A DNA stretch of 33,405 nucleotides from a virus, in IMG/VR virus record IMGVR_UViG_3300017776_003433, positions 1-33,405 of that record; one strand, written 5' to 3'. Below are positions 7,229-26,954 of the stretch, in pieces. Position numbers and translations under genes: made by a program. How positions within the stretch are numbered: the stretch's first letter is position 1; each line of letters opens with the position of its first letter. Under the pieces are notes generated by a model. It saw only the letters and a program-made list of their open reading frames with translations, searched no databases and was not told where the DNA came from.

Positions 7229-7936
7229 TTACTCCAATATTTTATCAGCAATTCCTAAATTAATTGCTTCCTGTGCATTTAAATAGACGTTTTGTTTCCT
7301 TCTCATAAAAGATTTGAGTTGTTTTTTTGTCATATTTGTTGCATCTGCTAAAGATTGTAGATATATGTCTTGCATTTTCTTGATTTCTGTCAGTTCGTTC
7401 TCAAGATTATGAAGAGAGCCATGATTACCAGCGATTACTGAGTGTATCATAACACGACAGTTCTTTCCGATATAACGCTCTCCTTTGGTTCCTGATGCTA
7501 AGATAAGCACACCGGCTGACATAACCTTTCCAATTCCGATTGTTTCGATAGGACAGTCCTTCTTAACTACGTTCATAATGTCAACTAGTGCTGCCATCTC
7601 ATCTGCAGATCCACCATATGTAGATACATACAATTTGATTGGCTTTCCTTCTTCTGTCAGTTCGCCTTCGTCATCGTACTTAGGCATACCTACGTGTTGC
7701 AATGTCAACAGTGCAGAGATAACCTCTGCGATTCTTTCTTCGTCTACGTCGCCATAGAGCCCCACTGATCTCATGGTATTGAGATCTTCTTCCTCTTCTG
7801 CTTTCTGAGCAACCATTCCCAATAATTCTTGAAGGCTTATCTCTTGTCCTTCTTCTTCCTCTTCCTCTACATCAAACTGCTGATCTTCAGCGACATCTTC
7901 TGATGTTTCTTCGATTTCTTCATTATCTTTGTTCAT
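7229..7936 (-). CDS. ClpP-like serine protease with acidic N-terminal extension
   Basis: 235 residues. Residues 1-50 are a Glu/Asp-rich extension, followed by a ClpP fold. YVSTYGGS at 103-110 is the oxyanion and handle region, the nucleophile is S140 in GKVMSAGVLILASG, and the histidine is H165 in RVMIHSV. The position equivalent to the third triad residue (Asp in E. coli ClpP) is N216 in KQNVYLN, as in Listeria ClpP1. It could act with a host ATPase, or as a capsid-maturation protease, as phage ClpP-like proteins often do. Its mRNA starts from promoter copy 4, whose start site lies inside a terminator hairpin. GGAGAA precedes the ATG. Confidence 0.9.
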   Translation of the reverse strand: MNKDNEEIEETSEDVAEDQQFDVEEEEEEGQEISLQELLGMVAQKAEEEEDLNTMRSVGLYGDVDEERIAEVISALLTLQHVGMPKYDDEGELTEEGKPIKLYVSTYGGSADEMAALVDIMNVVKKDCPIETIGIGKVMSAGVLILASGTKGERYIGKNCRVMIHSVIAGNHGSLHNLENELTEIKKMQDIYLQSLADATNMTKKQLKSFMRRKQNVYLNAQEAINLGIADKILE

Positions 7937-7956: not shown

Positions 7957-7989
7957 AAAAAAGGGCAAAACTATAGATAGTCTGCCCTT
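7957..7989 (-). terminator. Rho-independent terminator after the acidic-protein gene
   Basis: On the minus strand AAGGGCA and TGCCCTT form a 7-bp GC-containing stem with a 15-nt loop, followed by TTTT and G. It would stop transcripts coming from 8021-8575. The 5' arm abuts the -10 of promoter copy 4, so locally started RNA would lack most of that arm. Confidence 0.8.
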
Positions 7990-8020
7990 ATTATACGTTC
8001 GAAGTTTGCAAAATATTCAA
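7989..8020 (-). promoter_or_regulatory. Phage promoter copy 4 (clpP-like)
   Basis: TTGAATATT, a 16-nt spacer ending in ACG, then TATAATA directly after the stop of the acidic-protein gene. The predicted start is near 7983, inside the 5' arm of the terminator hairpin. Confidence 0.75.
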
Positions 8021-8575
8021 TTATTTACGTTTTGCAGACTCTCTCAAAAGACGTCTTGCGACACGACGAGTAACTTCAGCGATGACTTCTTCATCGTCAA
8101 CTGCTTCAGCATCGGCGGCTTCGAGATCGGCATCAACTTCATCGTCAGCCATCCCCATGTCACCTCCTTCGGGTGCTGCGTCCATGTCTTCCATGCCTTC
8201 ATCTTCCATACCTTCGTCTTCCATGCCCTCTTCGTCACCTTCAAGTTCCATAGAAACACCTTTGGATTCAGCCCAACCTTTGATTGCGCTAAGGAGATCC
8301 ATAACCATATCTTCGGCTTCTTCCTCTCCTCCTTCCATTTCGTCTTCAACTTCCATTTCTGGTTCCATTTCTGGCTCCATTTCCATTTCCATTTCTTCTT
8401 CTTGTTCTTCGAGTTTTTCTTCTTCGTCTTCACGATTACCCATTCCATAACCACCTTCTTCCAATTCTTGCTCTGCTTCATTTAAGAAGTTAGAAACGTA
8501 AGTTGGCTTGATGTTAGCGTACTTCATGAATTTACGAGTAGTACCCTCGTTTAAAATTAATTTTTTCTTAGCCAT
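8021..8575 (-). CDS. Highly acidic repeat-rich phage protein, head-core or scaffold suspected
   Basis: 184 residues. The first about 35 are basic and contain two LNE sites (ILNE followed by G at about 7-11; FLNE followed by A). Residues about 40-165 are dominated by Glu, Asp and Met, with tandem MEPEMEP and EGMED repeats, interrupted by a helix (VMDLLSAIKGWAESKG). The C terminus is a basic helix VARRLLRESAKRK. Similar architecture occurs in small core or internal proteins of large myoviruses. LxE sites recall the T4 prohead protease consensus, and a ClpP-like protease is the next gene. The function is inference. GGAG precedes the ATG, with a 14-bp palindrome just upstream. Confidence 0.75.
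   Translation of the reverse strand: MAKKKLILNEGTTRKFMKYANIKPTYVSNFLNEAEQELEEGGYGMGNREDEEEKLEEQEEEMEMEMEPEMEPEMEVEDEMEGGEEEAEDMVMDLLSAIKGWAESKGVSMELEGDEEGMEDEGMEDEGMEDMDAAPEGGDMGMADDEVDADLEAADAEAVDDEEVIAEVTRRVARRLLRESAKRK
8187..8231. repeat. Tandem 15-bp repeat, three copies
   Basis: Three adjacent 15-bp units, nearly identical, encode the repeated EGMED peptide of the acidic protein on the minus strand. Confidence 0.85.
8352..8393. repeat. Tandem 12-bp and 6-bp repeats
   Basis: Two 12-bp units (TCCATTTCTGGT/C) are followed by three TCCATT hexamers. They encode the MEMEMEPEMEPEM stretch of the acidic protein. Replication slippage is a likely source. Confidence 0.85.
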
Positions 8576-8604: not shown

Positions 8605-8646
8605 TAAATGCATTTTTGTTTTAATTAGTGACAGTCAATCCCAAGA

Positions 8647-12740: not shown

Positions 12741-12771
12741 AACCCTCCTATATTATATACGAGCGAGGATT
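12741..12771 (-). promoter_or_regulatory. Anti-SD inverted repeat around the -10 of promoter copy 6
   Basis: AATCCTC in the promoter spacer (12765-12771) can pair with GAGGGTT of the ribosome-binding site (12741-12747) with one G-U pair. Only read-through RNA would carry both arms. Confidence 0.5.
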
Positions 12772-12784
12772 ACTATTTATTCAT
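12751..12784 (-). promoter_or_regulatory. Phage promoter copy 6
   Basis: TGAATAAA, a 16-nt spacer ending in TCG, then TATATAATA. The TGA of TGAATAAA is the stop codon of the 67-residue gene upstream. Confidence 0.75.
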
Positions 12785-12984
12785 TTTTCCCAACCACATT
12801 CTTTGAGTGCTATTCGTACATCCTCCAAAGCATCGGTGAACCTCTTGCGCTTTATTGTTCTTAGATGCCCCAAGACAAAGCCTTTCCAAGTTCCCATATG
12901 TCTGAATAGATGTACAATTATTTCTCCATCTTCATTAAAGTATCTGAAGTTATCGTTTTCTATTTCCCATTTGTTTTTATTCAT
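12781..12984 (-). CDS. Small protein downstream of dnaE
   Basis: 67 residues. A beta-hairpin-like start (WEIENDNFRYFNEDGEIIVHLF) is followed by a basic segment RTIKRKRF and a C-terminal helix ending GWEK. GGAGAAG precedes the ATG; it begins 11 nt after the dnaE stop and is likely cotranscribed. The stop lies in promoter copy 6. The function is unknown; the basic patch would allow nucleic-acid contact. Confidence 0.55.
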   Translation of the reverse strand: MNKNKWEIENDNFRYFNEDGEIIVHLFRHMGTWKGFVLGHLRTIKRKRFTDALEDVRIALKECGWEK

Positions 12985-12995
12985 TGGCTTCTCCT

Positions 12996-15900
12996 TTACC
13001 CTAGCAACCTAAAGTTTCTTCTAATCGATCTTGTGCTAAAGCCCCACTGTTCACTGTAGTCTAGTTTAGCCATATAGGGCTGGTTAACATAGATTGTATC
13101 ATTCTCGGAGGGATTCCAACACTTGATATCTACCATAGCATTGTTTGAGTCCACAACCTTGAGAATCCAATATTCCTTACCTTTAGTTGTTTTCTTCTTT
13201 AGCAACTTGCGCGGAACAAACCACACTAGTAGTTGATCATCTTGACTAGACTCTACGGACATCGCAACCTCGTATTCAGAGATGGGTACGACTGGCAACT
13301 GTTCTAATTTGATACGAATTGAATCACTCATCACCAAGTCAAAAGGAAAGATACCTGTTAGATCTGACTTCTGAGATATTAACTCGTCTTTGGAGAAGTC
13401 ACCTTCTGCTTTGTATAGTTCTATATTCTCTCCGAACTTCTTCTTATTCTTAGGGCGATCAACAACTACAGCACTCCAGAAGTGTTTCATTCCATTGAAT
13501 CTGACATCCATCAAATGATCACACGCTCCAGCCCTCACAAGCACATCTAAAGCCTTCTTGTTAAGTTTGCTATACTTGACGTCAGGGTTGAACAGAAAGT
13601 CCTCTACAGTGTGAAATGGGCGGTTATTAACCACCTGTTCCATAGCAGAGTCTCCTAGTCCTTTGATGGTAGTCAAAGGCTGAAGAAGAGAGTTATTCTC
13701 TTTGTCATACTCCCACTGTTTACCAGAGACATTAACATTCAGTTTGGAGATTGTATACCCCAGAGTCTTCGCAGTAGCAATAGCAGATTCTTTCTTCTTG
13801 TCCGATACTTTGTCCAAGTAAGCAGCAAGCCATTCGCCCTCATGATAAGTCATGAGCCAAGCACACTGATAGGATATGATTGAATAGCAAACAGCATGAG
13901 ACTTATTGAAACCGTAGCCTGAGAAGTACTCAAAGTTCTGCCACATATCAAGAGCATCTTTACGGCGCATACCTTTGTCCGTACAGCCTTGGATAAAACG
14001 ATCTCTGATGTCGTACTTGAGTTCTGCACCTTTACCAGTACCTTTCTTTGTCAAGAGTTTACGAAGTAGATTGCCCTCATCAAGAGAGATGTTCTTACCC
14101 AACTTGTGAGCCAACAGAGCAATCTGCTCTTGGAAGATAAGGAAACCATAAGTCTCACCAGTTACTTGCTTTACAATATTGTTCTCGTAGAACACTTCAT
14201 GTGGAGCATCTTTAGCCTTAACATAATCTTCATGCACACCTGCCGATAGTGGGCCGGGGCGGAAGATAGAAGTGATAGCAGAGATGTCAACAATGTTACG
14301 TGGCTTGACGGACTTACAGAAGTTCTGCGCTCCTGACTCTGTGAACTGGAAGATACCTGCCCACTTACCTTGATGGAAGACATTCTCATACACTCTACGA
14401 TCTTCTAAGTCTAGGTTAGATGGATGTAGGTGCTTATTGTAGAATGCTTTGACTTCTTGGAAAGATGGATTGGCGTTACCTTGCTTCTTGAGGATGCGCT
14501 CGATACAACCCTGAATCATACGAAGCGTAGTAAGCCCAAGCAAGTCAAACTTAATGAAACCCATAGGCTCAAGTTGTCGGACGTTCTGCCCTTCACTCCA
14601 AGGAGTTTGGATGACACCTCCTGACTGAATCAGTGGCATGTGACTGTCTAAGTCTTCTGCGATCACAACACCACCAGCATGACGAGAACAAGAGCGATAC
14701 TGCCCTACCATAGACTTGACGTGCTTCTCAACCTGTGGATACTTTTTGAGGAAAGCCTTGAGAGTCGTAGAGAACTCTAGCACCTCTTCCCAATTTGGAA
14801 TATAAAGCCCTGCTTTGATGCCGTGCTTTTTCTTGGCGAGAGGTGTTGCCTCTGTAATCATCTTGCCAGTAACAATATTAACTTCTTTAAACTCGATGTC
14901 ATACATCTTTGAGATGTCTTTGATAAGAGACTTGAGTTGAAGTGTGTTCCAGTTAGAGATAGGAGCAACACAGTCTGTCCCCCATTCTTCAATAAGGTGA
15001 TCCTTGAGTTCCATAGGTTCTGCCACATCGTAGTCAATATCTGGATAGTCCTTAGCATCTTTACGTAAGAAGCGAGAGAACAGTAGTCCATACTTGAGTG
15101 GATCAACTTGTGTGATACCCAAGGCATAGGCAACTAGGGAGCCAGCAGCAGAACCACGTCCAGTACCAGTAAGCATCATATTGGATGCCTTGTCAGATAC
15201 AGCCTTCATAGTCAAGAAGTACTTGGAGAAGCCGCGCTCTGATATGACTGACAACTCTTCATCGACACGCGCCTTATACAATTGTGCAGTCTTTTTATTA
15301 GCCCTGTCTTGTTCTACTAAGATATTGAACAAACCTTCAGTCGTAAGTCGTCTGAGGTATTCATCTTCTGAATATCCGGCAGGTACAACAAAGTTAGGAA
15401 GTCGAACAGTATTGTCTGGTAAGAAAGTTTCGATTCTTTTAAAAGCAATATTCTCTGTCTCTTTGATAGAATCTAGAACGATTTGATCATCATACTCTAC
15501 ACCACACTCTTGTGAGTAGCGCTTGTATGATTCCCACATTTGTTCGGCATTCTTAGGATAGAGTTCACACTCTAGTTCCTGAATTTCAGCAGGTAGAGAC
15601 ATATCTAGCCACTCTGGCTTAGATCTACCAAGCCAACCAAGTCGCTTGTACAATTCTCTATCTTGCCATGCTTCAGGAGTAGGATAGTGAGAGTCAGCAG
15701 TAGAGATTAGTTTAAGCCCTCTCTCTTTGTGCATCTCGATTATATAACGATTAAGTTCATGCTGTTGAGGTACTCGGTTCCATTGTAACTCTCCGTACCA
15801 CCTGTCGCCCAAGATAGATTGGAATCTGTCTGTAAGGCGACGCATCTCATTCATGACTGCTTCTTCACCTTCTTCGTGCATACTCCAATAAGCACCTGCA

Positions 15901-16463
15901 TATACTCCACCAAGACAAGCAGAAGCGGCGATAACATCCTCTCCATACTTCTCTAAGAGTCCGAAATCGACTCTAGGCTTTCGATAAAAGTAATCGCCCT
16001 TGTGTGACTCGGACACCATCTTGAAGATGTTGTTAAGCCCCTTCTGGCTCATAGCAATAAGAATGAGATGACGAGAACGATTAATATCAGAACGTCCTTT
16101 GGACTTAGACTCCCCTTCTGTTTCGATTGAGATTCCTGATGAATCGTCTTTGATTTCTTTCTTGCGTTTCTTGTCTGCTTTTGCTTGATCATACTTCTCT
16201 CTCCATTCTACTACGTCTTCAATAAAATAAGCCTCAACGCCAAAGATTGGCTTGAAGTCTTTTCCTGCTTCTTTCATCTTCTTGGCGTGGAGTACCTGAT
16301 AGGCAAATCCATTCATGTTGCCGTGATCTGTTAAGGCAAGTGCTTTTGAACCGTTGGAGTTGGCATAATCCATGTGATCCTGTGGATAGCCGAAGCCATC
16401 GAAAGGAGAGCCAACTCCAGAATGTGCGTGTAAATTAACGAAATCGATATTCTTGATATCCAT
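12996..16463 (-). CDS. dnaE: DNA polymerase III alpha subunit (DnaE type, C family)
   Basis: 1155 residues, close to bacterial DnaE length. The PHP domain (about 5-280) keeps its metal ligands: HAHS (12-15), TDHGN (45-49), GVEAY (75-79), SRHLI (about 130), SACLGG (181-186) and TADSHY (255-260). Metal-dependent PHP proofreading is therefore possible. The palm has GTGRGSAAGS (433-442) and the catalytic aspartates D475 and D477 (PDIDYD), with D640 in KFDLLGL. SRHAGGVVIA (593-602) and GFNKSHA follow, then a C-terminal OB-like region. It should be the main replicase, with primer synthesis and clamp from elsewhere. Promoter copy 7 and TAGGGAGGTT lie upstream. Phages more often carry A- or B-family replicases. 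Confidence 0.97.
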   Translation of the reverse strand: MDIKNIDFVNLHAHSGVGSPFDGFGYPQDHMDYANSNGSKALALTDHGNMNGFAYQVLHAKKMKEAGKDFKPIFGVEAYFIEDVVEWREKYDQAKADKKRKKEIKDDSSGISIETEGESKSKGRSDINRSRHLILIAMSQKGLNNIFKMVSESHKGDYFYRKPRVDFGLLEKYGEDVIAASACLGGVYAGAYWSMHEEGEEAVMNEMRRLTDRFQSILGDRWYGELQWNRVPQQHELNRYIIEMHKERGLKLISTADSHYPTPEAWQDRELYKRLGWLGRSKPEWLDMSLPAEIQELECELYPKNAEQMWESYKRYSQECGVEYDDQIVLDSIKETENIAFKRIETFLPDNTVRLPNFVVPAGYSEDEYLRRLTTEGLFNILVEQDRANKKTAQLYKARVDEELSVISERGFSKYFLTMKAVSDKASNMMLTGTGRGSAAGSLVAYALGITQVDPLKYGLLFSRFLRKDAKDYPDIDYDVAEPMELKDHLIEEWGTDCVAPISNWNTLQLKSLIKDISKMYDIEFKEVNIVTGKMITEATPLAKKKHGIKAGLYIPNWEEVLEFSTTLKAFLKKYPQVEKHVKSMVGQYRSCSRHAGGVVIAEDLDSHMPLIQSGGVIQTPWSEGQNVRQLEPMGFIKFDLLGLTTLRMIQGCIERILKKQGNANPSFQEVKAFYNKHLHPSNLDLEDRRVYENVFHQGKWAGIFQFTESGAQNFCKSVKPRNIVDISAITSIFRPGPLSAGVHEDYVKAKDAPHEVFYENNIVKQVTGETYGFLIFQEQIALLAHKLGKNISLDEGNLLRKLLTKKGTGKGAELKYDIRDRFIQGCTDKGMRRKDALDMWQNFEYFSGYGFNKSHAVCYSIISYQCAWLMTYHEGEWLAAYLDKVSDKKKESAIATAKTLGYTISKLNVNVSGKQWEYDKENNSLLQPLTTIKGLGDSAMEQVVNNRPFHTVEDFLFNPDVKYSKLNKKALDVLVRAGACDHLMDVRFNGMKHFWSAVVVDRPKNKKKFGENIELYKAEGDFSKDELISQKSDLTGIFPFDLVMSDSIRIKLEQLPVVPISEYEVAMSVESSQDDQLLVWFVPRKLLKKKTTKGKEYWILKVVDSNNAMVDIKCWNPSENDTIYVNQPYMAKLDYSEQWGFSTRSIRRNFRLLG

Positions 16464-16468
16464 AAAAT

Positions 16469-16516
16469 AACCTCCCTAGTCATATGTTGTGTATATATTA
16501 TACGATTAGGGAGGTT
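16469..16516 (-). promoter_or_regulatory. Perfect 10-bp anti-SD inverted repeat spanning promoter copy 7
   Basis: AACCTCCCTA in the promoter spacer (16507-16516) is the exact reverse complement of TAGGGAGGTT (16469-16478), the ribosome-binding site of dnaE. The loop is 28 nt. With a predicted start near 16490, local transcripts carry only the ribosome-binding-site arm. Read-through transcripts carry both and could hide it. Confidence 0.7.
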
Positions 16517-16527
16517 GATTTATTCAG
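16494..16527 (-). promoter_or_regulatory. Phage promoter copy 7 (dnaE)
   Basis: TGAATAAA, a 16-nt spacer ending in TCG, then TATAATATA. It lies in the 70-nt gap before dnaE. Confidence 0.85.
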
Positions 16528-16533
16528 AATAAT

Positions 16534-16923
16534 TTATCGATTAATCTCTCGATTTGATGCCTCTACTGCACCTTTTAATTTTGATGATATTCCATCAATC
16601 TTTTGATTGATTCCGGAATCAGGTGTCGATGCTGAGCCTGCCAAAGAATATTGACTGCCATCGAAATATACCAAAACTTCTTGCGGAACACTACCGCCAA
16701 AATCGATAACCAATGCTGAACGAGCGCCATCTTTTATAGCCTTTAGTCTTCCGGCTTTCAAGCCAGATACCTCAAAAGCCTGAGATGCTGCTTCTCTAAT
16801 TCTCATGCTAAATTTTTCTAATTCAGGAGAAGAATCAATCGCTCCAGACTTTTCGTTCAATACTTTGTTCGACTCTTCCTTAGTGTACTTTTTAAAGTTT
16901 TCCATTAATATTTTCATTTTCAT
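16534..16923 (-). CDS. Small tagged phage protein, packaged-protein candidate
   Basis: 129 residues. The first 25 (ILMENFKKYTKEESNKVLNE) form an amphipathic helix ending in LNE, similar to short N-terminal tags on other small proteins in this window and to T4 capsid-targeting sequences cut after LxE. The remainder is a compact alpha/beta region with an ALVIDFGG strand, a YFDGSQYSLAGS turn and a C-terminal helix. GGAG lies 8 nt before the ATG. It is the last gene of the set starting at 17358, ending before dnaE. The function is unknown; virion packaging is inference. Confidence 0.65.
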   Translation of the reverse strand: MKMKILMENFKKYTKEESNKVLNEKSGAIDSSPELEKFSMRIREAASQAFEVSGLKAGRLKAIKDGARSALVIDFGGSVPQEVLVYFDGSQYSLAGSASTPDSGINQKIDGISSKLKGAVEASNREINR

Positions 16924-16943
16924 TGTAATTTCTCCTTTAATTA

Positions 16944-17276
16944 TTACATATTGTGGACATATGTGTTGTATACATTGTCATTTGTTCTGAATCTGTCCAT
17001 CATGACAGGCTGATCCAGATCTTCTGGTGGTTTATTCATATTCGCAAAAATTCTATCAGCCAAGTCTTTTCCAATTGAATATTTTCCACTAGTTTGATCT
17101 CCGATAATATTCAAGAAATATCTAGGCTCACCAGAATTAGAAGATCTGACATAAATTGTAAAATTCTGTCCTGCTTGTGTTCTTCCGTCTCTTTCGTATT
17201 CAGGGCCTTTGCCTTCTAGTACTTTGTTCAACTCTTCTTTTACGAGTTGCTTGATATAAGATTTTGTTACTTTCAT
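16944..17276 (-). CDS. Small tagged phage protein with YIKQLVKEEL N terminus
   Basis: 110 residues. The N-terminal KSYIKQLVKEELNKVLE (5-21) is nearly the same as that of the protein at 24447-24713, although the rest differs. The remainder alternates beta strands (NFTIYVRSS, RYFLNIIGDQ) and ends in a polar Asn-rich tail. AAGGAGAAT precedes the ATG, as for the cysteine-rich peptide just upstream. The tag with a following VLE-G boundary suggests targeted packaging into the head and cleavage by a maturation protease (inference). Confidence 0.65.
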   Translation of the reverse strand: MKVTKSYIKQLVKEELNKVLEGKGPEYERDGRTQAGQNFTIYVRSSNSGEPRYFLNIIGDQTSGKYSIGKDLADRIFANMNKPPEDLDQPVMMDRFRTNDNVYNTYVHNM

Positions 17277-17298
17277 TTTAAATTCTCCTTAAATTAGT

Positions 17299-17358
17299 TT
17301 AACAACATTTTTCGCATTCACATGCACAACATTCACAGCAGTTACAATTTTTAGACAT
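17299..17358 (-). CDS. 19-residue cysteine-rich micro-protein (metallothionein-like)
   Basis: A 19-codon frame starts at the ATG at 17356-17358 and ends with TAA at 17299-17301. Nine of 19 residues are Cys (positions 5, 7, 8, 10, 11, 13, 15, 18 and 19), spaced as CxCC, CC, CxC and CC, with acidic residues between. AAGGAGAAT lies 9-10 nt upstream, the same leader as for the next gene, so translation is well supported. Such spacing suits binding of Zn or Cu ions or an iron-sulfur cluster. It could be a metal buffer or donor for zinc proteins such as the gp32-type SSB. The assignment rests on composition only; no homologue is claimed. Confidence 0.65.
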   Translation of the reverse strand: MSKNCNCCECCACECEKCC

Positions 17359-17391
17359 AATGTGATTCTCCTTAAATGATTGATTTTCAGA

Positions 17392-17400
17392 ATAAATAGT
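17392..17400 (-). promoter_or_regulatory. ACTATTTAT motif, candidate second promoter class
   Basis: ACTATTTAT on the minus strand lies about 34 nt before the cysteine-rich peptide. The same 9-mer precedes the other YIKQLVKEEL-tagged gene at 24735-24743. Two copies are few, so it may be chance. Confidence 0.25.
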
Positions 17401-17415
17401 TAATTAATTTGTTAA

Positions 17416-18303
17416 TCACTCAAATTCTAATAAAGATTTTTTATATTTCGATGGCTCTATCCACTTCTCCACAACTGGCTTGTCTATGTTGACGTCAGAA
17501 TTCGCCCATTGCCTGTATCCGTCAAAAGATGTAGCATTGAAATAATAAGGAAGATCAAGTGTCGTAGCATCTTCTCCAAGTTGACAGAACACGTCTTCAA
17601 GTTGAAAATGTCTGCCACTCCATCTCTCTTCTGCAGGGAGAAGTTCTCTAGGAATTCCTTCTTCGTTCTTCTTACCTCCGGGAACATATCTGCCAGTACC
17701 TTCTTTACGAACCCATGCACGACAATTTATGAAATCTTCCTCGTTGAAAGTAAAACCCATCATCTTGCCCTGCTTGATTCCCTCACCTTCAGAAGTAATC
17801 CTGAACCTTTTATGAGTAGAGATTGGCTTCCTGTATTCCCTAACTATCTCTGGAGGGTACAGGCTCCAAGGAAAGGCAACATAATACATACTAGGCACTA
17901 TCCACTTAGAAAGTTGATTAGACACCCTGTAAGCCATATATGCGCCCTCTATGATACTCCATCCATAAGAATCACGCTTGTTTCTATTCTTAATGTCGAT
18001 AGAAGTAAAGTAAATTGGAATCATTGTTCTTTTGGCAAATCTGTCTGGATCCATTGGACGATGATAATTGACAGGATCATAAACATAATCCCCTATCACC
18101 TTTTTAAACATTGGCTGAATGTCCGGATCAGCCACAATCCATATTGTCTCACATCCTGCCCAAGCACATTCCATGATTGCTCTGTGTATCATCAAATAGT
18201 TGTCATTCACAGGCAAAAGGCATGGGTGATAGGGCAAGTTATATTGTAACGGGATTGAAGACAATGGTATGATACCTGCTAAATGAAAATTAAGATTACT
18301 CAT
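17416..18303 (-). CDS. Conserved phage protein, divergent nucleotidyltransferase-like N terminus
   Basis: 295 residues from the ATG at 18301-18303; a longer TTG start is less likely. Residues about 7-60 (LAGIIPL, LPYHPCLLPVNDNYLMIHRA, CAWAGCETIWIVAD) follow the order of sugar-nucleotide pyrophosphorylases, which have LAGG, PKPLLPV and AGxxxIxIVT. The Gly-rich GTR loop is missing, so catalysis is doubtful. Later features include GWSIIEGAYMAYR, an aromatic-rich stretch and several WxxP turns. It overlaps the upstream gene by 8 bp and both are probably made together. The role is unknown; a sugar-nucleotide or RNA-end function would be guesses. Confidence 0.6.
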   Translation of the reverse strand: MSNLNFHLAGIIPLSSIPLQYNLPYHPCLLPVNDNYLMIHRAIMECAWAGCETIWIVADPDIQPMFKKVIGDYVYDPVNYHRPMDPDRFAKRTMIPIYFTSIDIKNRNKRDSYGWSIIEGAYMAYRVSNQLSKWIVPSMYYVAFPWSLYPPEIVREYRKPISTHKRFRITSEGEGIKQGKMMGFTFNEEDFINCRAWVRKEGTGRYVPGGKKNEEGIPRELLPAEERWSGRHFQLEDVFCQLGEDATTLDLPYYFNATSFDGYRQWANSDVNIDKPVVEKWIEPSKYKKSLLEFE

Positions 18304-19108
18304 ATATTTCTTTGTCCATAATATCAAAATCAATAATGTGCTCTAAAGAGTCCTCCATCCTATTCATAATGGGTGATATTTCTCTTTTACCCAGTGTTAA
18401 GTTAAAACTCTTTTCTATATTCCAGAATATAGAATTTTGCACCTTAAGTCTAGTTGCTGTTTGGCTGTATTTCCACACGTCTAAATTCTCTTCAGTTATT
18501 ATTGACTTGGCACATACTTTATATTTTCTTCCCTTGTCTTTGAAAAATATTGTTTCAAAATTCAAAGTATCTAAAAAATCACAATCTTTTGATGTGAACA
18601 TATCTGTCTTGAAGTCATAGATTTTGTCCAATTCTATGTAATCGTTAACCATGTACACCTTTTTTCCAAAAGTATGCTTTGCGTAGTCAAACAGCAAAGT
18701 ATTGCCTGAGTAGATATTGACAACCTTGTTGTCTGCTCCAACTGCAAACATACGTATATTGTTGCCAACCGGTACAGGATCTGTGAAACTGTTTTTATAG
18801 AAGCCATACATTGGCATTAAACCCATGATTCCCAATCGATAAGCCATAATATTCCAAAGTTCTAGCCTTTGCATTCCTCTTTTCTCTTTCTTGCCTGAGA
18901 GTAAGTTGTACTCTCTGGACTTATTTTCCACTTGAATACCCGACAGATCCAGCCCATAAGGTAGATGGTGATGTGGTAATGGCTTATGTCTTTCATCGAC
19001 AAAGATTGGTATTTGATATTTATAAGCAGTTACCATCGCTTGAACTGTGGTTCCGATTATTACCTTGTCGAAGTAAAGATCTGTATCACGATGAGGACTT
19101 GCTTTCAT
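18296..19108 (-). CDS. Conserved phage protein of unknown function, Rossmann-like start
   Basis: 270 residues. The N-terminal YFDKVIIGTTVQAMVTAYKYQIPIFVDE (about 12-39) reads as strand-turn-helix-strand with a GTT turn, resembling a nucleotide-binding fold without a complete GxGxxG. A central segment (GLMPMYGFYKNSF, about 97-109) and several Lys/Asp-rich strands follow. No catalytic motif is recognised. It follows thyX with a 23-bp overlap and precedes the nucleotidyltransferase-like gene with an 8-bp overlap, so these probably act in the same expression unit. Confidence 0.55.
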   Translation of the reverse strand: MKASPHRDTDLYFDKVIIGTTVQAMVTAYKYQIPIFVDERHKPLPHHHLPYGLDLSGIQVENKSREYNLLSGKKEKRGMQRLELWNIMAYRLGIMGLMPMYGFYKNSFTDPVPVGNNIRMFAVGADNKVVNIYSGNTLLFDYAKHTFGKKVYMVNDYIELDKIYDFKTDMFTSKDCDFLDTLNFETIFFKDKGRKYKVCAKSIITEENLDVWKYSQTATRLKVQNSIFWNIEKSFNLTLGKREISPIMNRMEDSLEHIIDFDIMDKEIYE

Positions 19109-19838
19109 TTTTTATCTTCCTATATGCTCCAACAGTAACTGGAAAGAGATCTGTTGCTATCTCTAGGCATGCATCTGCTACCTTCTGTATCTCCCACTGT
19201 GCTCCTTCATGAGTTCTCAAATCAATAAACTTGAGTAAATTGCTGAGGTTTACTGTTCCGTAATATTCCGTATATAAGTTCTGAGGCAATACTCCTCTAG
19301 CCTGTTCTCTACAGACTCCGGACTCTATCAACTTATCAAAAAAATCTAGAGACTGCTTATGCCATGATTTCATTGCATCAGAAGCCGAGATGTAGGAGTC
19401 GATAAATTGAGGTGCGATAGTAGGGTTAGCAGTGTCATTCTCATTTGAAGCCTGCCTATTACTTTCATGTTGAGTTCTGAACTCTAGCGGCTCATAAAAC
19501 TGGAGATTCTTCTCAGTATAACGTCTGCTAATCTCGTTATAACTCCAAGTGCGGTGCCTATGGTGCTGAGAACGAACAAACAGAGGCACGACGAATTTAA
19601 AAGTAATAAGATTATGCTCAAGTGTTGATGTGTGGCGATGTCTAATAAGATAGTTGATAAGTCGCTTGTCTCTTCTATCGAGTTCGGACTTCTCGATACC
19701 AAAAGAAACCCTTGCAGAGTTAACAACAGTGATGTCGCTGCCCATATAATCAACAAGGCTAACTGAGCCAATATTGTCTCCGTAAGTAAAAATCGTTCTG
19801 TTATATACATTATTTTTGTTATCACTTTCATTCATCAT
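19086..19838 (-). CDS. thyX: Flavin-dependent thymidylate synthase
   Basis: 250 residues. The ThyX signature RHRTWSYNEISRRY is at 94-107, matching RHRxxSxNExSxRY. CREQARGVLP (about 173-182) and a C-terminal RTHEGAQWEI block are further family marks. It converts dUMP to dTMP using FAD, NADPH and methylene-tetrahydrofolate. It fits with dUTPase and RNR in one dNTP pathway. Two consecutive ATGs overlap the stop of the GroES-like gene (GTATGATG). GGAGG spacing slightly favours the second (19835). A glutamine/asparagine-rich insert (about 119-140) is longer than in many homologues. Confidence 0.97.
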   Translation of the reverse strand: MMNESDNKNNVYNRTIFTYGDNIGSVSLVDYMGSDITVVNSARVSFGIEKSELDRRDKRLINYLIRHRHTSTLEHNLITFKFVVPLFVRSQHHRHRTWSYNEISRRYTEKNLQFYEPLEFRTQHESNRQASNENDTANPTIAPQFIDSYISASDAMKSWHKQSLDFFDKLIESGVCREQARGVLPQNLYTEYYGTVNLSNLLKFIDLRTHEGAQWEIQKVADACLEIATDLFPVTVGAYRKIKNESKSSS

Positions 19839-20104
19839 ACCTCCAGTAGTAATACTAAATAGTTTTCAGAAACAATATGGTACGTTTCCGAATTTATCGA
19901 TATATCCTCAATCATCGAAGTCTCCACATAAGCATCGCCAGAATATTGTTGTTTGCAGTCATCTGCACATGCAATAATCTGCACTCTAGTAAATCGTTCA
20001 ACCTCTTGTGGTTTGAAAGAAGTTGGCAATATAAAAGTGGTTGCCACTTCCTCCTTCTCTACAACTGGCATTTCTACCAATAAATGTCTATTGACTGGTT
20101 TCAT
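19835..20104 (-). CDS. GroES-like co-chaperonin
   Basis: 89 residues, the size of GroES. The N-terminal KPVNRHLLVEM and the C-terminal ETYHIVSENYLVLLLEV match the barrel-closing strands of GroES (the KPLxDRVLV and ExxxxxxENDILAxVE types). Between them, EEVATTFILPTSF (about 18-30) sits where the mobile loop with its hydrophobic IVL contact lies, with FIL in that place. It would cap a GroEL ring, either the phage one at 3357-4934 or the host one, as T4 gp31 does. Identity is low, so the call rests on pattern and size. It has its own promoter (copy 8), and its stop overlaps thyX. Confidence 0.7.
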   Translation of the reverse strand: MKPVNRHLLVEMPVVEKEEVATTFILPTSFKPQEVERFTRVQIIACADDCKQQYSGDAYVETSMIEDISINSETYHIVSENYLVLLLEV

Positions 20105-20112
20105 AAAAAAAT

Positions 20113-20146
20113 CCTCCTCTTTGTATATATTATACGTCTGAGGAGG
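20113..20146 (-). promoter_or_regulatory. Anti-SD inverted repeat spanning promoter copy 8
   Basis: CCTCCTC in the promoter spacer (20140-20146) is the exact reverse complement of GAGGAGG (20113-20119), the ribosome-binding site of the GroES-like gene. The predicted start near 20122 separates the arms. Confidence 0.6.
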
Positions 20147-20158
20147 TTGTTTTATTCA
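20126..20158 (-). promoter_or_regulatory. Phage promoter copy 8 (GroES-like, thyX)
   Basis: TGAATAAA, a 16-nt spacer ending in ACG, then TATAATATA, located between the RNR stop and the GroES-like start. Confidence 0.85.
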
Positions 20159-20165
20159 TTGGAAT

Positions 20166-22022
20166 TTAGAATATTTCGCAAGAACCTCCAGCACATGCAA
20201 GTTCTCCCGAAAGATTTGTTTGATCATCTTCTTCTGAAACATTATCTAGATTGATTTCTTCCAAACTCTTCAGCATTTCATTATATTCTTCTTCCGTGCA
20301 GTCTTCAAATGGAGCCTGCTTGTAAGTGTGATCATTGAAGGGTAGAACTGATAATCCATTATAAGAATCTCGGTTGTCCCACATCCATTCGCCAACTGTC
20401 TCCCATTCATGATCTTTGATGGTTACGGTTGCAGAAACATTGTGAGAATTCTGTCCTCTTTGGTGTCCACCACGTACCCAAGAAGACGTTACAGCCTTTA
20501 CCCTCTCCAACATATCCATAGCACTCTCAGAACGTGTTATGGCGCCTTCAGGAGCCTTCTGTGGTGCAGAAATAACTGCTGTATCGTGAGGCGAGAAGTA
20601 TTCGTCCTCAACCAACTCTGGATGGTTTTGTAAGAGGTAATTATAAATTGATTCATTCTTTCCTACGCGTAATCTGCGTATATAATAATCGTTATGCCAC
20701 GCATGAATACCACTTGAGGTACCAAGAGTCAAAGATGTAGTCCCTGCTGGTTTAACACAAGTTGTTCTAGCCGCCTGTTTAATACCAATCTGCATCGCAA
20801 TTCTACGATTTTCTTTTTTAATTTCTAGTGCAGCCTTACTCATGTCTAGCCCTAATACGCCTCCAGAAGCAATACCAGTCATAGATACGCCCACAAGAGC
20901 ATCTTTCTCTGTGGTTCGTTGCCACACAGGGCGAAGATAATGAAAATCAGTATACCCTGCTTGCAAAGTACCGATGAATGTTGCTGCTCTCGCCCTCTTC
21001 TCCAACTCTTCTTGAGTTTCAACGTCTGATACGTTAATTTCAGTCAGATTACAAAACTGGTAAGATCGCAGTGCGATCTCACAGCAAGGGTTGGTACCCC
21101 AATCTTTATCATTAGAGAAGTAGAATCCGGGCTCTCCAGCACCTGATGCTCTCACTCGTTCCCAGATATCCATAAAGAAGTCTTTCTTAATCTTGTGTCG
21201 TAGAAGAACAACAGAATTGTTTGCTCTACCACGTTGAGGATTAAGTTCCCACCAATTACCAGACTTGGCAGCCAACATCTCGATATCATCCGCAGAAAAT
21301 AAAGAAATAAGCGCTGCACGTCGGATGCCACCTGCCAATACTGCATCTGCAATATGACACATGATATCATGGGCTTCTATAGTAGTTAGTTTTTCTCCAT
21401 CTTCTTTATGCCGTAAGATACCTTTAACCTTTACAATACACTCACGAAGAGGTTGTGGGCCGGGTGCTTTACCGCCTGAAGTAACCAGTTTGGCTCCTTT
21501 TGCACGGATATCAGAGAAGTCAAAACGAATTTTGGAAGTCCCTTTAAAGTAAGAGTTCAAAAGCGCCTTAATGGCGTCTGCCCATCCTTCAATAGAGTCC
21601 GCCACTAGATATCGCCTAGTTCTATTCTCATTTGGCTTTCGGATCTCAGGCAACTTCTCGACATGATGACGTTGCACCGAAAAACCTACACCAGTTCCTC
21701 CCAAAAGCAAGAACATTGCTTCTGAGAAAGAACGAAGATCATCAACAGGCATGAAAGCACAGTTGAAGATACGATTAGGAGAAACCTCAATAGGCTTTCC
21801 TCCAAACTGCATAGATCTCATTGATGGAAGAACCTTCTTATCAAACACCATCTTGTACGTCTCAATAATTTCATCCCTCAGTTGAGGATATTTTTTAATA
21901 TGCATCTCCATATTACGAGTGACAAGTTCATTCCAGTTTTCTCGTCTCTGCTTGTCTTCCAGATAACGTGCGTATTTCATATGGACTGTGATGTCCGATA
22001 GTATTTGATTTGATACTTCCAT
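20166..22022 (-). CDS. nrdJ: Class II (B12-dependent) ribonucleoside-triphosphate reductase
   Basis: 618 residues, monomeric RTPR type. Redox Cys88 lies in FNCAFMPVDD. LLGGTGVGFS (106-115), NPCCEIAL with the thiyl-radical-site Cys (about 313) and E315, and C324 in FCNLTEIN follow. The C terminus has the re-reduction pair C610 and C615 (CAGGSC). It reduces ribonucleotides to deoxyribonucleotides with adenosylcobalamin, so it needs no separate radical subunit or oxygen. Host or environmental B12 is implied. It is shorter than the roughly 740-residue Lactobacillus enzyme. The start has GGAGAA in the last codons of the helicase gene. The phage glutaredoxin could supply electrons (inference). Confidence 0.96.
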   Translation of the reverse strand: MEVSNQILSDITVHMKYARYLEDKQRRENWNELVTRNMEMHIKKYPQLRDEIIETYKMVFDKKVLPSMRSMQFGGKPIEVSPNRIFNCAFMPVDDLRSFSEAMFLLLGGTGVGFSVQRHHVEKLPEIRKPNENRTRRYLVADSIEGWADAIKALLNSYFKGTSKIRFDFSDIRAKGAKLVTSGGKAPGPQPLRECIVKVKGILRHKEDGEKLTTIEAHDIMCHIADAVLAGGIRRAALISLFSADDIEMLAAKSGNWWELNPQRGRANNSVVLLRHKIKKDFFMDIWERVRASGAGEPGFYFSNDKDWGTNPCCEIALRSYQFCNLTEINVSDVETQEELEKRARAATFIGTLQAGYTDFHYLRPVWQRTTEKDALVGVSMTGIASGGVLGLDMSKAALEIKKENRRIAMQIGIKQAARTTCVKPAGTTSLTLGTSSGIHAWHNDYYIRRLRVGKNESIYNYLLQNHPELVEDEYFSPHDTAVISAPQKAPEGAITRSESAMDMLERVKAVTSSWVRGGHQRGQNSHNVSATVTIKDHEWETVGEWMWDNRDSYNGLSVLPFNDHTYKQAPFEDCTEEEYNEMLKSLEEINLDNVSEEDDQTNLSGELACAGGSCEIF

Positions 22023-22024
22023 TG

Positions 22025-23392
22025 TTAATTCTCCTTGTTTTTGTTTTTGTATCTACTGTATAGATCTGCTTTGTGCTCAGAGAGAGATCTTTCCTCCATT
22101 TCCTGCATTGTCTCCGTAGACTCGGCTAGAACTTGCATACTTACAGTGCTCCAGTCTGCTACGATTGGGTAAACAATTCCGTCAACCCCGTTTCTATTTT
22201 TGGCTACAAACATTCTACCTGTGTTGTTAACTTTGTCTTGTGCTGTTCTTGATACAGAACAGATAAAATCAGCAACAAAACACTTGTTAAATGCCTCAGA
22301 AATTGATTCCATTGTAACAACTTCGGCGTTAAGCCCTGAGCGGTTTGTTTGAGATGCTGTCCAAAGAGGACATTGAAACATTTGAGCCATTCCGCGTAAT
22401 TCTTCGTATATGTTCTCCAAGTCATGTCTTTTCTCCCTAGTCATACTCACTGGCTTAAGCAAATCGGCATAATCTACGATGATCATACCTACCTCAACTC
22501 CTCTTTTCTTCAACTTCTCTAAGTGATTTCTTAGAGTTTGAGTTGACGCAGATTTAGTTGGATATTCTTTAATTATGAGTGATCCATCTAATTGACTAAT
22601 TTCGTCATAAACTTGTTCCTTAAAACTGTTCAAATCAGACAATGGGACATTTGTGATACAAGAGTCATATCGTCTTCCTATGACTTTGTCTGAAAGTTCC
22701 ATAGTATAGTGTACAATAGTTTTACCTGCTTTGACTGCTTCTGCGCCCAAGGCAGTAAGAACCATAGATTTTCCTGCCCCTGTTGGAGCCACAACGACTC
22801 CTAACTCGCCTATTCCAAGTCCACCACCTGTTATATCATCAATGTGCTCCCACCCTGTAGACTGTGGATTGCGAGCCTTTAAAGTGTATCTTTCTTCGAA
22901 ATCTGTAAGGTACTCATAGCCTGCTTCATTTCCTAGTCCTAGGGACAAAGCATTATTGATAATCTTACTGATCTCATCAAATGATGACGATTGCATTAAC
23001 TCAACTGTTTCCATTAACGCACCTTTCAGTTTTTGCTTTCTACAGAAATCTAGACTGACTCCTATGATATACTCAGAATCTTCAACCTCAGATCCGTGAA
23101 TACGTGCAAAGTACTCTTTAACTTGTCTTTGTAACGCTTCGTTCTCACTTTCCAATTCTGTTCTTAATATGGTAATCATCGTTTTGTAAGATGGATGTAC
23201 CTTGTATTTCTCTCTATATCCCAAGATTTTAGACACGAATGTCTGTAAGTAAGATAACTCAAAGAAATTGATATCTAGAACCTCTGTGATTTGATCGCAG
23301 TAGTTTCTATCCTCCAACATTAGTTGAACCATCGATTCTTGAAAATGTTTCCCAAATCTGGAAAAATCTTCTGGCATTTTTCTCATATTCAT
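22025..23392 (-). CDS. Replicative DNA helicase (DnaB/gp41-like)
   Basis: 455 residues. The N-terminal part (about 10-150) is helical, as in DnaB-type scaffolds. The C-terminal RecA-like motor has Walker A APTGAGKS (202-209), an acidic switch strand HYTMELSD (about 228-235), Walker B IIVDYADLL (304-312), and QTNRSG (about 347-352) for motif H4. It should form a hexamer that unwinds the fork ahead of the phage polymerase. A loading protein is not obvious nearby. GGAGGG precedes two in-frame ATGs (MNM), and promoter copy 9 drives it. A charged Lys/Asn tail closes the protein. Confidence 0.95.
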   Translation of the reverse strand: MNMRKMPEDFSRFGKHFQESMVQLMLEDRNYCDQITEVLDINFFELSYLQTFVSKILGYREKYKVHPSYKTMITILRTELESENEALQRQVKEYFARIHGSEVEDSEYIIGVSLDFCRKQKLKGALMETVELMQSSSFDEISKIINNALSLGLGNEAGYEYLTDFEERYTLKARNPQSTGWEHIDDITGGGLGIGELGVVVAPTGAGKSMVLTALGAEAVKAGKTIVHYTMELSDKVIGRRYDSCITNVPLSDLNSFKEQVYDEISQLDGSLIIKEYPTKSASTQTLRNHLEKLKKRGVEVGMIIVDYADLLKPVSMTREKRHDLENIYEELRGMAQMFQCPLWTASQTNRSGLNAEVVTMESISEAFNKCFVADFICSVSRTAQDKVNNTGRMFVAKNRNGVDGIVYPIVADWSTVSMQVLAESTETMQEMEERSLSEHKADLYSRYKNKNKEN

Positions 23393-23411
23393 TAACCCTC
23401 CTTGTTTGTTT

Positions 23412-23442
23412 TATTATACGTTTGTGTTGCCTGTTTTATTCA
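23412..23442 (-). promoter_or_regulatory. Phage promoter copy 9 (helicase, RNR)
   Basis: TGAATAAA, a 16-nt spacer ending in ACG, then TATAATA. The TAA of TGAATAA is the stop codon of the exonuclease gene. No anti-SD arm is evident here. Confidence 0.85.
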
Positions 23443-24404
23443 GAGATTATTCTTCTCATTGTTTGTTCTAAGACTTCCCATTTCAATGACATAAAGCCAT
23501 CTTCCGATAGCATCAATTTAAACCCTGTAAGATTAAAGTGCTTATCTCTATCAGTTAGACAATTCTCAACCATTTGACGTCTCTGATAAGATACAGAAGG
23601 TTGATACAATTGCATGATTTTGTAGTTTTCATGAATCACATCTTTGTGCTCTAGAACTGCTTCTAGATACTTGCTCTTCTTTTCTTTTAAGAGATCATTG
23701 GTAGCCTTAAATAGATCTTGTGCACTATATTCTTCGTCTTCAGACAAGAAAGGAAAGAACTTTACTACTCTTCCAAACCCTATGCCCGGAACTCCGGGAA
23801 GGTTATCAGATGCATCGCCGACAAGTGCTCTAGCCAATGCCATATTCTTAGGGTGGATCTTTAGATCTTCTAAGATTCTCTTTGTGTTCAATATTTCCCA
23901 AGGCTTTTTAGCAGGACGCATTAAGATAGTTGTCTCATCGCACAACTGCATAAAATCCTTATCATTAGACATAATAATCTTTTGATCTTCTGCGACACCT
24001 TTAGCCTGAACAATCGCTGAGATGATATCATCAGCCTCAATGTCTTCAAACATAAATTGGCAAATTGGAAGATGCTCCAGATATTCTAGCAGTCTTGCCT
24101 GTTGCCAAACTTTGTTGTCCTTCTCTTGTTGCAAGGAGAAGTCATATCCCATGTCTTTAGGTAGATGGACAACCTTTCTACCTGCCTTATAGTTAGCGTT
24201 TATTTGTCGTCTCTTTCTAGATCCGCCACTGCCATCCCAGACGATTACAACGTCATCTGGCTTTGTTAGTCTTATGGACTTCTGTAAAGACTTCAGAAAG
24301 CCAATACAGCCACCTGCAGGGTTACCTTGTATACTTATACTTGGATCCCTAGCGTAGCACCTAAAAAACATATTAAGTGCATCAATAATTAAAATTTTTC
24401 TCAT
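23436..24404 (-). CDS. 5'-3' exonuclease / FLAP-type nuclease (T4 RNase H-like)
   Basis: 322 residues from the ATG at 24402-24404, with GGAGGG upstream; the longer frame would cross the promoter. Metal ligands of the PIN-like fold are present: D8 (IIDALN), D57 (VWDGSGG), E123 with D125 and D126 (EADD), D148 and D150 (SNDKD), and D197 and D200 (GDASDN). A GVPGIG helix-hairpin-helix follows. It would remove RNA primers and flaps at the fork, in line with its position upstream of the helicase. Length matches T4 RNase H (about 305). The stop codon is embedded in promoter copy 9. Confidence 0.95.
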   Translation of the reverse strand: MRKILIIDALNMFFRCYARDPSISIQGNPAGGCIGFLKSLQKSIRLTKPDDVVIVWDGSGGSRKRRQINANYKAGRKVVHLPKDMGYDFSLQQEKDNKVWQQARLLEYLEHLPICQFMFEDIEADDIISAIVQAKGVAEDQKIIMSNDKDFMQLCDETTILMRPAKKPWEILNTKRILEDLKIHPKNMALARALVGDASDNLPGVPGIGFGRVVKFFPFLSEDEEYSAQDLFKATNDLLKEKKSKYLEAVLEHKDVIHENYKIMQLYQPSVSYQRRQMVENCLTDRDKHFNLTGFKLMLSEDGFMSLKWEVLEQTMRRIISE

Positions 24405-24405
24405 A

Positions 24406-24437
24406 TTCCCTCCGTATATATTATACGTTTGAGGGAA
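24406..24437 (-). promoter_or_regulatory. Anti-SD inverted repeat spanning promoter copy 10
   Basis: TTCCCTC in the spacer (24431-24437) is the exact reverse complement of GAGGGAA (24406-24412), which includes the exonuclease ribosome-binding site; one more G-U pair is possible. The predicted start is near 24413. Confidence 0.6.
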
Positions 24438-24449
24438 CAATCTTATTCA
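24417..24449 (-). promoter_or_regulatory. Phage promoter copy 10 (exonuclease)
   Basis: TGAATAAG, a 16-nt spacer ending in ACG, then TATAATATA. The TGA is the stop codon of the tagged small gene upstream. Confidence 0.85.
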
Positions 24450-24713
24450 TACTTTCTTTTCACCATTTATTTTTAAACTGACACCAAAGCCTTGTGCTTG
24501 CAATTGCTTTGCTAACGACGTCATGGTATCTTCAATTTCTTCAGATGACATATTCTTGCGTGGTACTGAAGATTTGCTTGGAGACGGAGAACGTTCTTTG
24601 CTTCTCATATGCTTTTCCAATGCTTCTTCTCCAGCCAGAATATCATCTTTGTACCTAGTCTCGTCCAGTGCCTCTTTTACTAGTTGTTTGATGTAAGTTT
24701 TGTCGATTTTCAT
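24447..24713 (-). CDS. Small tagged phage protein with YIKQLVKEAL N terminus
   Basis: 88 residues from the ATG at 24711-24713, preferred because GGGAGA lies 8 nt upstream. Residues 5-18 (KTYIKQLVKEALDE) repeat the tag of the protein at 16944-17276 almost exactly, while the rest differs. The middle is Lys/Ser-rich and disordered (about 35-52), and the C-terminal helix is SSEEIEDTMTSLAKQLQAQG. It lies between the UvsX terminator and promoter copy 10. The shared tag suggests the same destination, perhaps the capsid interior (inference). Confidence 0.65.
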   Translation of the reverse strand: MKIDKTYIKQLVKEALDETRYKDDILAGEEALEKHMRSKERSPSPSKSSVPRKNMSSEEIEDTMTSLAKQLQAQGFGVSLKINGEKKV

Positions 24714-24734: not shown

Positions 24735-24743
24735 ATAAATAGT
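24735..24743 (-). promoter_or_regulatory. ACTATTTAT motif, candidate second promoter class
   Basis: The same 9-mer as at 17392-17400, here about 22 nt before the ATG of the tagged protein and just after the UvsX terminator. A gene placed directly behind a terminator needs its own promoter, which gives this copy some weight. Confidence 0.3.
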
Positions 24744-24746
24744 CAC

Positions 24747-24780
24747 AAAAAAAACTCCCTACCAAATAAATGATAGGGAG
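24747..24780 (-). terminator. Strong rho-independent terminator after uvsX
   Basis: On the minus strand CTCCCTA and TAGGGAG form a perfect 7-bp stem with a 12-nt loop, followed directly by eight T. It closes the SSB-UvsX transcript. Confidence 0.92.
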
Positions 24781-24820
24781 CCACAACACAAACAAACAAA
24801 GGAGTCATTTCGTACTACTT

Positions 24821-26083: not shown

Positions 26084-26851
26084 TTATGATAATAACTCTT
26101 TGAAGGCTGCATCGACATCTGATGTCTCTGAATTAGAGTACTTGGTAGTACCAACAGAGTTGTCAGCAGTTGATGTGCCTGCTTCGGCATTCAAGAATTC
26201 AGAAAGCATAGTTTCTATTTCTTGTGTAGTTTTTGTGTTAAAGTTCTCCATGAATGAAGGCATCGAGTCCATGATTCGAACCGTGTCTTCGGAGGCTTCT
26301 GCCAAAGCACTAGGGCGGCGACGTGGAGTGATTTTAGTTACTGGGAACTGTGCTCCGGGTGGCTTACCATAATTAATAGACAGATCAGTTCCGCCATCAA
26401 TATCAGTAATATCACCGTAGTCGGGATTAGTTACCAGTCCGATCAATTCGCCATAAGCCGTCTTACCATAGCCCCACAATTTAATACCTTGATCTTCTTC
26501 ACCTCGAACTACGACAGGTGAGAAAAAGCGTTCTTTCGCAAACAAGGTTTTACAGAACTTAAGTGTTTCAGTATCACCTGCCTTTTTTGCATCATTATAA
26601 GTGCTCCAAGCAAAGTTGCAAACAGGGCAGTCTTCGCCGTGCATCTTTTTAGGACACAAAAATCCGGGATTCTTACCTACATTGTAGTGAAAGAAAAATT
26701 GCTTGAACGGATCTCCGTCTTCGGGACAAACAATGCGAATTGTTTGATCTCCATCTTGTGGTTTCCAAAATGCGTTTTGGGTTGAGTTTCCATTGCCGTT
26801 TCCTTGCAATGCGTTGAGTTTTTGTCTCATTTTATTAAAATCTATAGCCAT
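26084..26851 (-). CDS. Single-stranded DNA-binding protein (T4 gp32-like)
   Basis: 255 residues with gp32 layout. A basic N-terminal region (1-15) is followed by an OB-type core with zinc ligands H55, C66, C75 and C78, near the His-Cys-Cys-Cys spacing of T4 gp32. Aromatic-rich DNA-contact strands follow. A flexible acidic C-terminal tail (about 215-255, ending in DVDAAFKELLS) is the usual site for partner binding. It coats single-stranded DNA at forks and assists UvsX, whose gene is next. Promoter copy 11 lies upstream, with a leader that has a hairpin and an unstructured A-rich run before GGAG, reminiscent of the self-regulated gp32 leader. Confidence 0.95.
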   Translation of the reverse strand: MAIDFNKMRQKLNALQGNGNGNSTQNAFWKPQDGDQTIRIVCPEDGDPFKQFFFHYNVGKNPGFLCPKKMHGEDCPVCNFAWSTYNDAKKAGDTETLKFCKTLFAKERFFSPVVVRGEEDQGIKLWGYGKTAYGELIGLVTNPDYGDITDIDGGTDLSINYGKPPGAQFPVTKITPRRRPSALAEASEDTVRIMDSMPSFMENFNTKTTQEIETMLSEFLNAEAGTSTADNSVGTTKYSNSETSDVDAAFKELLS

Positions 26852-26896
26852 AATATTTCTCCTTTGTTTGAATTTTGACTTTTTGTCTAAAGTAGA

Positions 26897-26914
26897 GATG
26901 ATTGATCTATCATC
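26897..26914 (-). promoter_or_regulatory. Leader hairpin upstream of the SSB gene
   Basis: GATGAT and ATCATC form a 6-bp stem with a 6-nt loop, about 46 nt before the SSB start codon. An A/U-rich, weakly structured segment follows up to GGAG. Possibly a translational operator, by analogy with T4 gene 32. Confidence 0.4.
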
Positions 26915-26923
26915 CCTCTATAG

Positions 26924-26954
26924 TATTATACGTTTGAGTTGTTGAAATTATTCA
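26924..26954 (-). promoter_or_regulatory. Phage promoter copy 11 (SSB, UvsX)
   Basis: TGAATAAT, a 16-nt spacer ending in ACG, then TATAATA. The whole promoter lies inside the 3' end of the upstream gene, whose stop TAA (26926-26928) is part of the -10. Confidence 0.8.

Follow-up and report, generated by a model that had tools for sequence, protein, structure and literature searches.

Early-class promoters nested inside candidate read-through hairpins in a group of uncultured marine phages

Several T4 genes (e, soc, 49, I-TevI and segB), as well as mobE of Aeh1, have a late promoter placed inside a hairpin of the ribosome-binding site, which silences these late genes on early RNA (PMC3014915, PMC2988022). 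At sigG of Bacillus subtilis, it has been proposed that a large hairpin prevents the translation of RNA reading through from the upstream spoIIG operon; this hairpin cannot form on RNA started at the sigG promoter (PMC5942855). Here we report on a viral stretch of 33,405 nucleotides (IMG/VR record IMGVR_UViG_3300017776_003433, hereafter the window), in which promoters of a putative early class are nested inside hairpins. As in the T4 e/soc class, the 5′ arm lies in the promoter region, so that only a long RNA started upstream would fold the ribosome-binding site away, locally started RNA being without the arm. In the T4 class, however, a late promoter is nested and the long transcripts are early or middle ones, whereas here, going by promoter class only, an early promoter is nested and the long transcripts would start at late-type promoters; moreover, some of the present hairpins have a U-tract or are plain terminators. 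The sigG case likewise relies on a read-through-only hairpin proposed to protect the downstream gene, but it concerns one chromosomal gene, whereas several genes of a phage group are involved here, with hairpins exchangeable with terminators. Finally, an ordinary insulating terminator upstream of a promoter also halts read-through into the next gene, and is present at the same genes in sister phages, but there the hairpin stands apart from the promoter instead of enclosing it, and the Shine-Dalgarno (SD) sequence plays no part. The mechanism proposed below would work as in the T4 and sigG systems, with the timing of the T4 class inverted.

Three genes, all on the minus strand of the window, have a promoter whose spacer is complementary to the SD downstream. 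The first is dnaE (12996-16463), which encodes a DnaE-like DNA polymerase of 1155 aa (PHROG 405, E=1.4e-222). Its promoter, found by motif match at 16496-16526, contains the anti-SD arm AACCTCCCTA (16507-16516), which pairs at 10 of 10 positions with TAGGGAGGTT (16469-16478), the arm that includes the SD and is followed by ATTTT (16464-16468). The second is an 89-aa gene (19835-20104) with a promoter at 20128-20158, where CCTCCTC (20140-20146) pairs 7 of 7 with the SD-containing GAGGAGG (20113-20119), itself followed by an A and seven T (20105-20111). This gene had been labelled GroES-like, a name that we do not retain: the protein, which may at most be a remote homologue, gave no PHROG, Pfam or PDB sequence match to GroES or to any other protein. 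The third encodes a 5′-3′ exonuclease (23436-24404, 322 aa counted from the ATG, PHROG 107, E=1.4e-32). Its promoter (24419-24449), in which the TGA doubles as stop codon for the gene upstream, contains TTCCCTC (24431-24437), pairing 7 of 7 with GAGGGAA (24406-24412), which includes the SD and has no U-tract behind it. The original prediction listed a fourth inverted repeat, AATCCTC/GAGGGTT, at a 71-aa gene (12741-12771, minus strand). All four were found where it had placed them, and the three above far exceed chance, but the fourth, with its one G-U pair, was rejected: its −9.1 kcal/mol ranks only at p = 0.09 among the other spacers, and most relatives have lost the pairing.

The promoter class has the consensus TGAATAAA-N14-CGTATAATA. 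A weight matrix was trained on the window and 27 related IMG/VR contigs (28 records), found via dnaE, exonuclease, ThyX and motif searches. It recognised 323 sites, of which 15 in the window, versus 4 in reversed control sequence. Duplex energies between spacer and SD region were calculated for the 227 promoters having an SD-led gene within 60 nt, which belong to 86 gene families. Three window promoters stand out: that of dnaE at −17.6 kcal/mol, that of the 89-aa gene at −14.1 and that of the exonuclease at −12.8. When the 11 usable window spacers were shuffled among promoters, obtaining three pairs at −12 kcal/mol or better had a probability of 0.0009. Over all families the trait is rare, with about 2.3 of them observed per draw at or below −12.5 kcal/mol where shuffling predicts 0.2 (P=0.0008). 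The other window promoters ranged from −0.8 to −7.2 kcal/mol, which is unremarkable; they include the copies at which weaker versions of the hairpin had been suggested, and these were rejected as members.

The onset of SD sequences is abrupt, at about position 12 behind the C of CGTATAAT, which places the predicted transcription start near or before that point. Starts are thus probably located at or just before SD onset, between the arms and downstream of all anti-SD arms. The 5′ arms fall within the -35/-10 spacer, upstream of this putative start, as in T4 e and soc. Folding of the two RNA forms at dnaE, the 89-aa gene and the exonuclease predicted an SD unpaired probability of 0.00 in read-through RNA, compared to 0.41-0.80 in locally started RNA. 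Over the 20 anti-SD promoters the medians were 0.00 and 0.57 respectively, whereas at 207 other promoters they were 0.61 and 0.68. In the exonuclease and 89-aa folds, the stem was lengthened by GTATA...TATAC around the -10 box.

Pairing was conserved in relatives. All 6 dnaE orthologues with an early-class promoter reached −11.3 kcal/mol or better, and the spacer arm was among the most variable parts of the leader. The arms read ACTCCCT/AGGGAGT in the contig of L003, where one base pair is lost from both, AGCCTCTC/GAGAGGTT in L024, where C-G has become U-A, and AACCTCTCTA/TAGGGAGGTT in L021, where C-G has become U-G. A relative with 70% identity in dnaE had neither the hairpin nor the late-type element described below. 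Anti-SD hairpins and upstream terminators also excluded each other at two genes. Six exonuclease promoters carried an anti-SD hairpin and no terminator, seven an upstream intrinsic terminator and no anti-SD, and none had both; on the exonuclease tree, this label changes at least 3 times. For the 89-aa gene, four promoters had the hairpin, four the terminator, and again none both. Together with the folding and the conserved pairing, this exclusivity supports the earlier proposal that the hairpin would exist only in read-through RNA, with a predicted start between the arms.

A hairpin of another kind was found at a head-maturation-protease-like gene (7229-7936, PHROG 94, E=1.6e-20). The -10/start region of its early-class promoter (7989-8019, minus strand) is the 5′ arm of a true intrinsic terminator, AAGGGCA...TGCCCTTTTTT, which extends over 7961-7989 (minus strand, AAGGGCAGA...TTTGCCCTT followed by a U-run). 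The AAGGGC form of this terminator-nested promoter is present at the protease gene in the window and in six other records, and a variant (AAGAGCATC) precedes a different gene in an eighth record.

A second motif, ACTATTTAT, has no -35 and precedes the tail sheath, tail tube and head-tail adaptor genes. Among 98 copies of ACTATTTA, 59 precede an SD start within 110 nt, versus 7-23% for control 8-mers, and A-rich positions are found 13-14 nt downstream, as expected of a start. We consider the ACTATTTAT/ACTATTTA element a candidate late promoter. It lies upstream, with no early promoter in between, at 17 of 27 hairpin promoters compared to 2 of 215 others (P=2.5e-17). Counted by gene family, the figures are 5 of 8 and 1 of 80 (P=8e-6), two of the eight hairpin families (the 71-aa gene and a methyltransferase) being weak or single cases. 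No comparable upstream signal was obtained with 10 of 11 control 8-mers; the eleventh, ATCATTTA, falls inside the leader of some late-type genes. Of the 21 intervals that separate a late element from its hairpin, 20 had no terminator.

In the window, these late-type elements are on the minus strand. The one at 17393-17400 (ACTATTTA) is 874 nt upstream of the dnaE promoter, with two small genes in between (16534-17276), encoding 110 aa (beginning with MKVTKSYIKQLVKEELNKVL) and 129 aa; neither protein matched a Pfam family, and the 129-aa one had no PHROG match. The one at 24736-24743 (ACTATTTA) sits directly behind an intrinsic terminator (GCTCCCTATCATTTATTTGGTAGGGAGT and a T-run, 24746-24781, minus strand, −17.3 kcal/mol), and an 88-aa late-type gene (24447-24713, minus strand, product beginning with MKIDKTYIKQLVKEALDE) lies between this terminator and the exonuclease promoter. 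In every relative bearing such a late cassette at the exonuclease, the terminator is upstream of the late element; the cassette therefore seems to have entered the space between this terminator and the exonuclease, the hairpin being carried there by the exonuclease promoter. Ahead of the protease gene, ACTAATTA (8622-8629) has one mismatch to the late-type element, and relatives have ACTATTTA at the same place. The gene that follows it (8021-8575) encodes an acidic 184-aa protein, starting with MAKKKLILNEGTTRKFMKYA and ending with EVTRRVARRLLRESAKRK, which is kept before the protease-like gene in relatives and is probably a late head protein.

Since a late-type promoter drives the gene or gene pair just upstream at dnaE, exonuclease and protease, the hairpins likely silence early genes on late RNA. 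We hold it quite probable that they are read-through-only structures, whose role is most likely to keep early or replication genes silent on late read-through RNA. The early-class promoter would be positioned so that transcription begins inside the hairpin. RNA started locally would then lack the 5′ arm and have a free ribosome-binding site, whereas a polymerase arriving from the upstream gene would make the whole hairpin. At the exonuclease this hairpin would hide the SD, and at the protease gene it would end the transcript; the SD stems of dnaE and of the 89-aa gene have a U-tract behind them, and there SD hiding and termination plausibly act together. The feature shared by these genes is a hairpin that cannot form without sequence from before the predicted start; its target (translation, transcription or both) would vary by gene. 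The sequences directly show the arms with their conservation, the mutual exclusion of hairpins and terminators, and the tie with late-type promoters; start sites, promoter timing and any effect on expression are inferred from them.

Several points weigh against this proposal. The phages compared are related, which inflates the counts and makes the P values too small. In the exonuclease tree, the well-supported branches hold only one independent pair. Exchanging arms between relatives (own versus swapped) was uninformative at the exonuclease and marginal among dnaE orthologues, where 36 of 720 permutations were as good, because any CCUCC pairs with any GGAGG; covariation, suggested beforehand as a check, thus brings support through persistent pairing and a few compensated changes at dnaE. 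For the 89-aa gene, which does have the hairpin, the 1.2-1.5 kb before it contain no late-type promoter and the nearest lies about 4.6 kb upstream, so this hairpin may simply insulate the gene from the ribonucleotide reductase (RNR) operon. Finally, starts 1-2 nt earlier than supposed would leave part of the terminator on the local protease RNA.

Less probable is the view that these structures act chiefly as intrinsic terminators for the upstream (late) gene, pressed onto the next promoter by compaction, SD pairing being a by-product of the use of GGAGG as 3′ arm. A G+C-rich stem directly followed by a U-tract is indeed seen at the dnaE, 89-aa and protease genes, although not at the exonuclease. 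Every hairpin of dnaE and of the 89-aa gene has a run of 4-8 T behind the SD, and no other of 84 families reaches 5. It is unlikely that these runs merely pair with the AATAAA of the -35, as the 89-aa gene keeps T6-T8 in those relatives where the opposing strand is ATATAATAT, with T-T at several positions. In addition, the SD is not covered by the protease terminator, and upstream open reading frames (ORFs) end at most 23 nt from the -35 at 20 of 20 anti-SD promoters. However, the exonuclease hairpins and that of a small gene in G004 (17964) keep the anti-SD without a U-tract, and a terminator has no need to take the SD as an arm. SD sequestration, the block originally put forward, would suit the exonuclease; at dnaE and the 89-aa gene termination may act instead or besides, and the protease hairpin is a pure terminator.

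The T4 comparison made in the original prediction implies T4-like timing, with hairpins that would hold a later-expressed gene silent on read-through RNA made early. The anatomy matches that of T4 e and soc (PMC3014915, PMC2988022), but we regard this timing as unlikely, because the nested class stands before replication genes and small early-type ones, and the upstream promoters belong to the class that precedes tail genes. In a 185-kb relative (G002), the TGAATAAA class clusters at 89-147 kb and is sparse in the structural region; it precedes replication, single-stranded DNA-binding protein (SSB), HNH and small genes, and lies shortly upstream of a sigma-factor-like ORF. The nested promoter is thus, as judged by gene context, of the early/replication class, and with most hairpins downstream of late-type promoters the T4 order would be inverted.

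It is very improbable that the palindromes act as operators for a protein bound over the promoter. The -10 region does lie within the dyads, and GTATAATATATAC by itself is close to a palindrome, but the arms vary among genes and orthologues while pairing is retained, as had been argued in favour of RNA pairing, and the 3′ arm always contains the SD or a terminator arm. Chance encounter of pyrimidine-rich spacers with purine-rich SDs, which could be invoked because anti-SD spacers are a minority trait concentrated at a few genes (about 3-6 of 86 families) and the shuffle over all families gives its clearest result at the most stringent cut-off, can practically be set aside given the persistence of pairing in all dnaE orthologues, the exclusivity with terminators and the association with late-type promoters.

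Returning to silencing on late read-through RNA, we lean slightly towards a group-wide rule: wherever a late cassette comes before an early gene, the early promoter would be found inside a read-through hairpin (anti-SD, terminator or both), which would keep early replication genes off on late RNA. Several cassettes encode proteins with a shared N-terminal tag, possibly internal head proteins. Should the silencing of early genes on late RNA be true, the T4 device of a promoter inside a ribosome-binding-site hairpin would also run reversed, closing early genes late in infection, and anti-SD hairpins and terminators would be interchangeable answers to read-through in compact phage genomes. The analysis would also offer a simple sequence rule by which uncultured phages can be scanned for sites of this kind, and it proposes two candidate classes of promoter for this marine group. 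The late-type small genes before exonuclease and dnaE (88-155 aa in total) share an N-terminal MKVTKSYIKQLVKEEL-like tag and differ in the remainder; this tag is found in the window (24447-24713 and 16944-17276) and in relatives L247, L254, L256, L262 and L291. It presumably resembles the capsid-targeting tag of variable internal head proteins.

The genomes concerned belong to an uncultured group of marine contractile-tailed phages, with no close cultured relative in the collection searched. A near-identity search against GenBank phages gave no match, and protein searches there returned only relatives below 60% identity, about 35% or less in the top rows. No relative was found by a dnaE scan of bacterial and archaeal genomes, protease and helicase scans brought no new contigs, and wide RNR and ThyX scans matched mostly unrelated phages. 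The window contains no Rfam family and no tRNA.

Some further observations were made on promoters and leaders. Often the upstream frame ends on the TGA or the TAA of the -35 element TGAATAA, in the window (24449, 12783) and at many promoters in relatives, so that promoters lie right on gene ends; some frames counted as ending on TGAATAA may be non-coding. The sigma-factor-like gene of the 185-kb relative (L270:4889-5410) has matches in three other contigs (L301-L304), and its product may be what recognises one or other of the two promoter classes. The window also encodes a real GroEL homologue (3357-4934, 525 aa). In its promoter (4993-4935), the spacer GTGATTAT pairs with ATAATCAT, which adjoins the SD and does not cover it; in relatives the helix extends to the first SD base. 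This promoter was left out of the main set because its SD stays largely free. Lastly, a gp32-like SSB gene (26084-26851, Pfam gp32, E=1.3e-12) has a conserved structured leader (26852-26945) after a promoter at 26954. This leader, which had no Rfam match, contains an 11-bp hairpin whose stem sequence varies among relatives, followed by a conserved GACTTTAGACAAAAAGTC-like stretch, and by analogy with T4 gene 32 it is a possible autoregulatory site.

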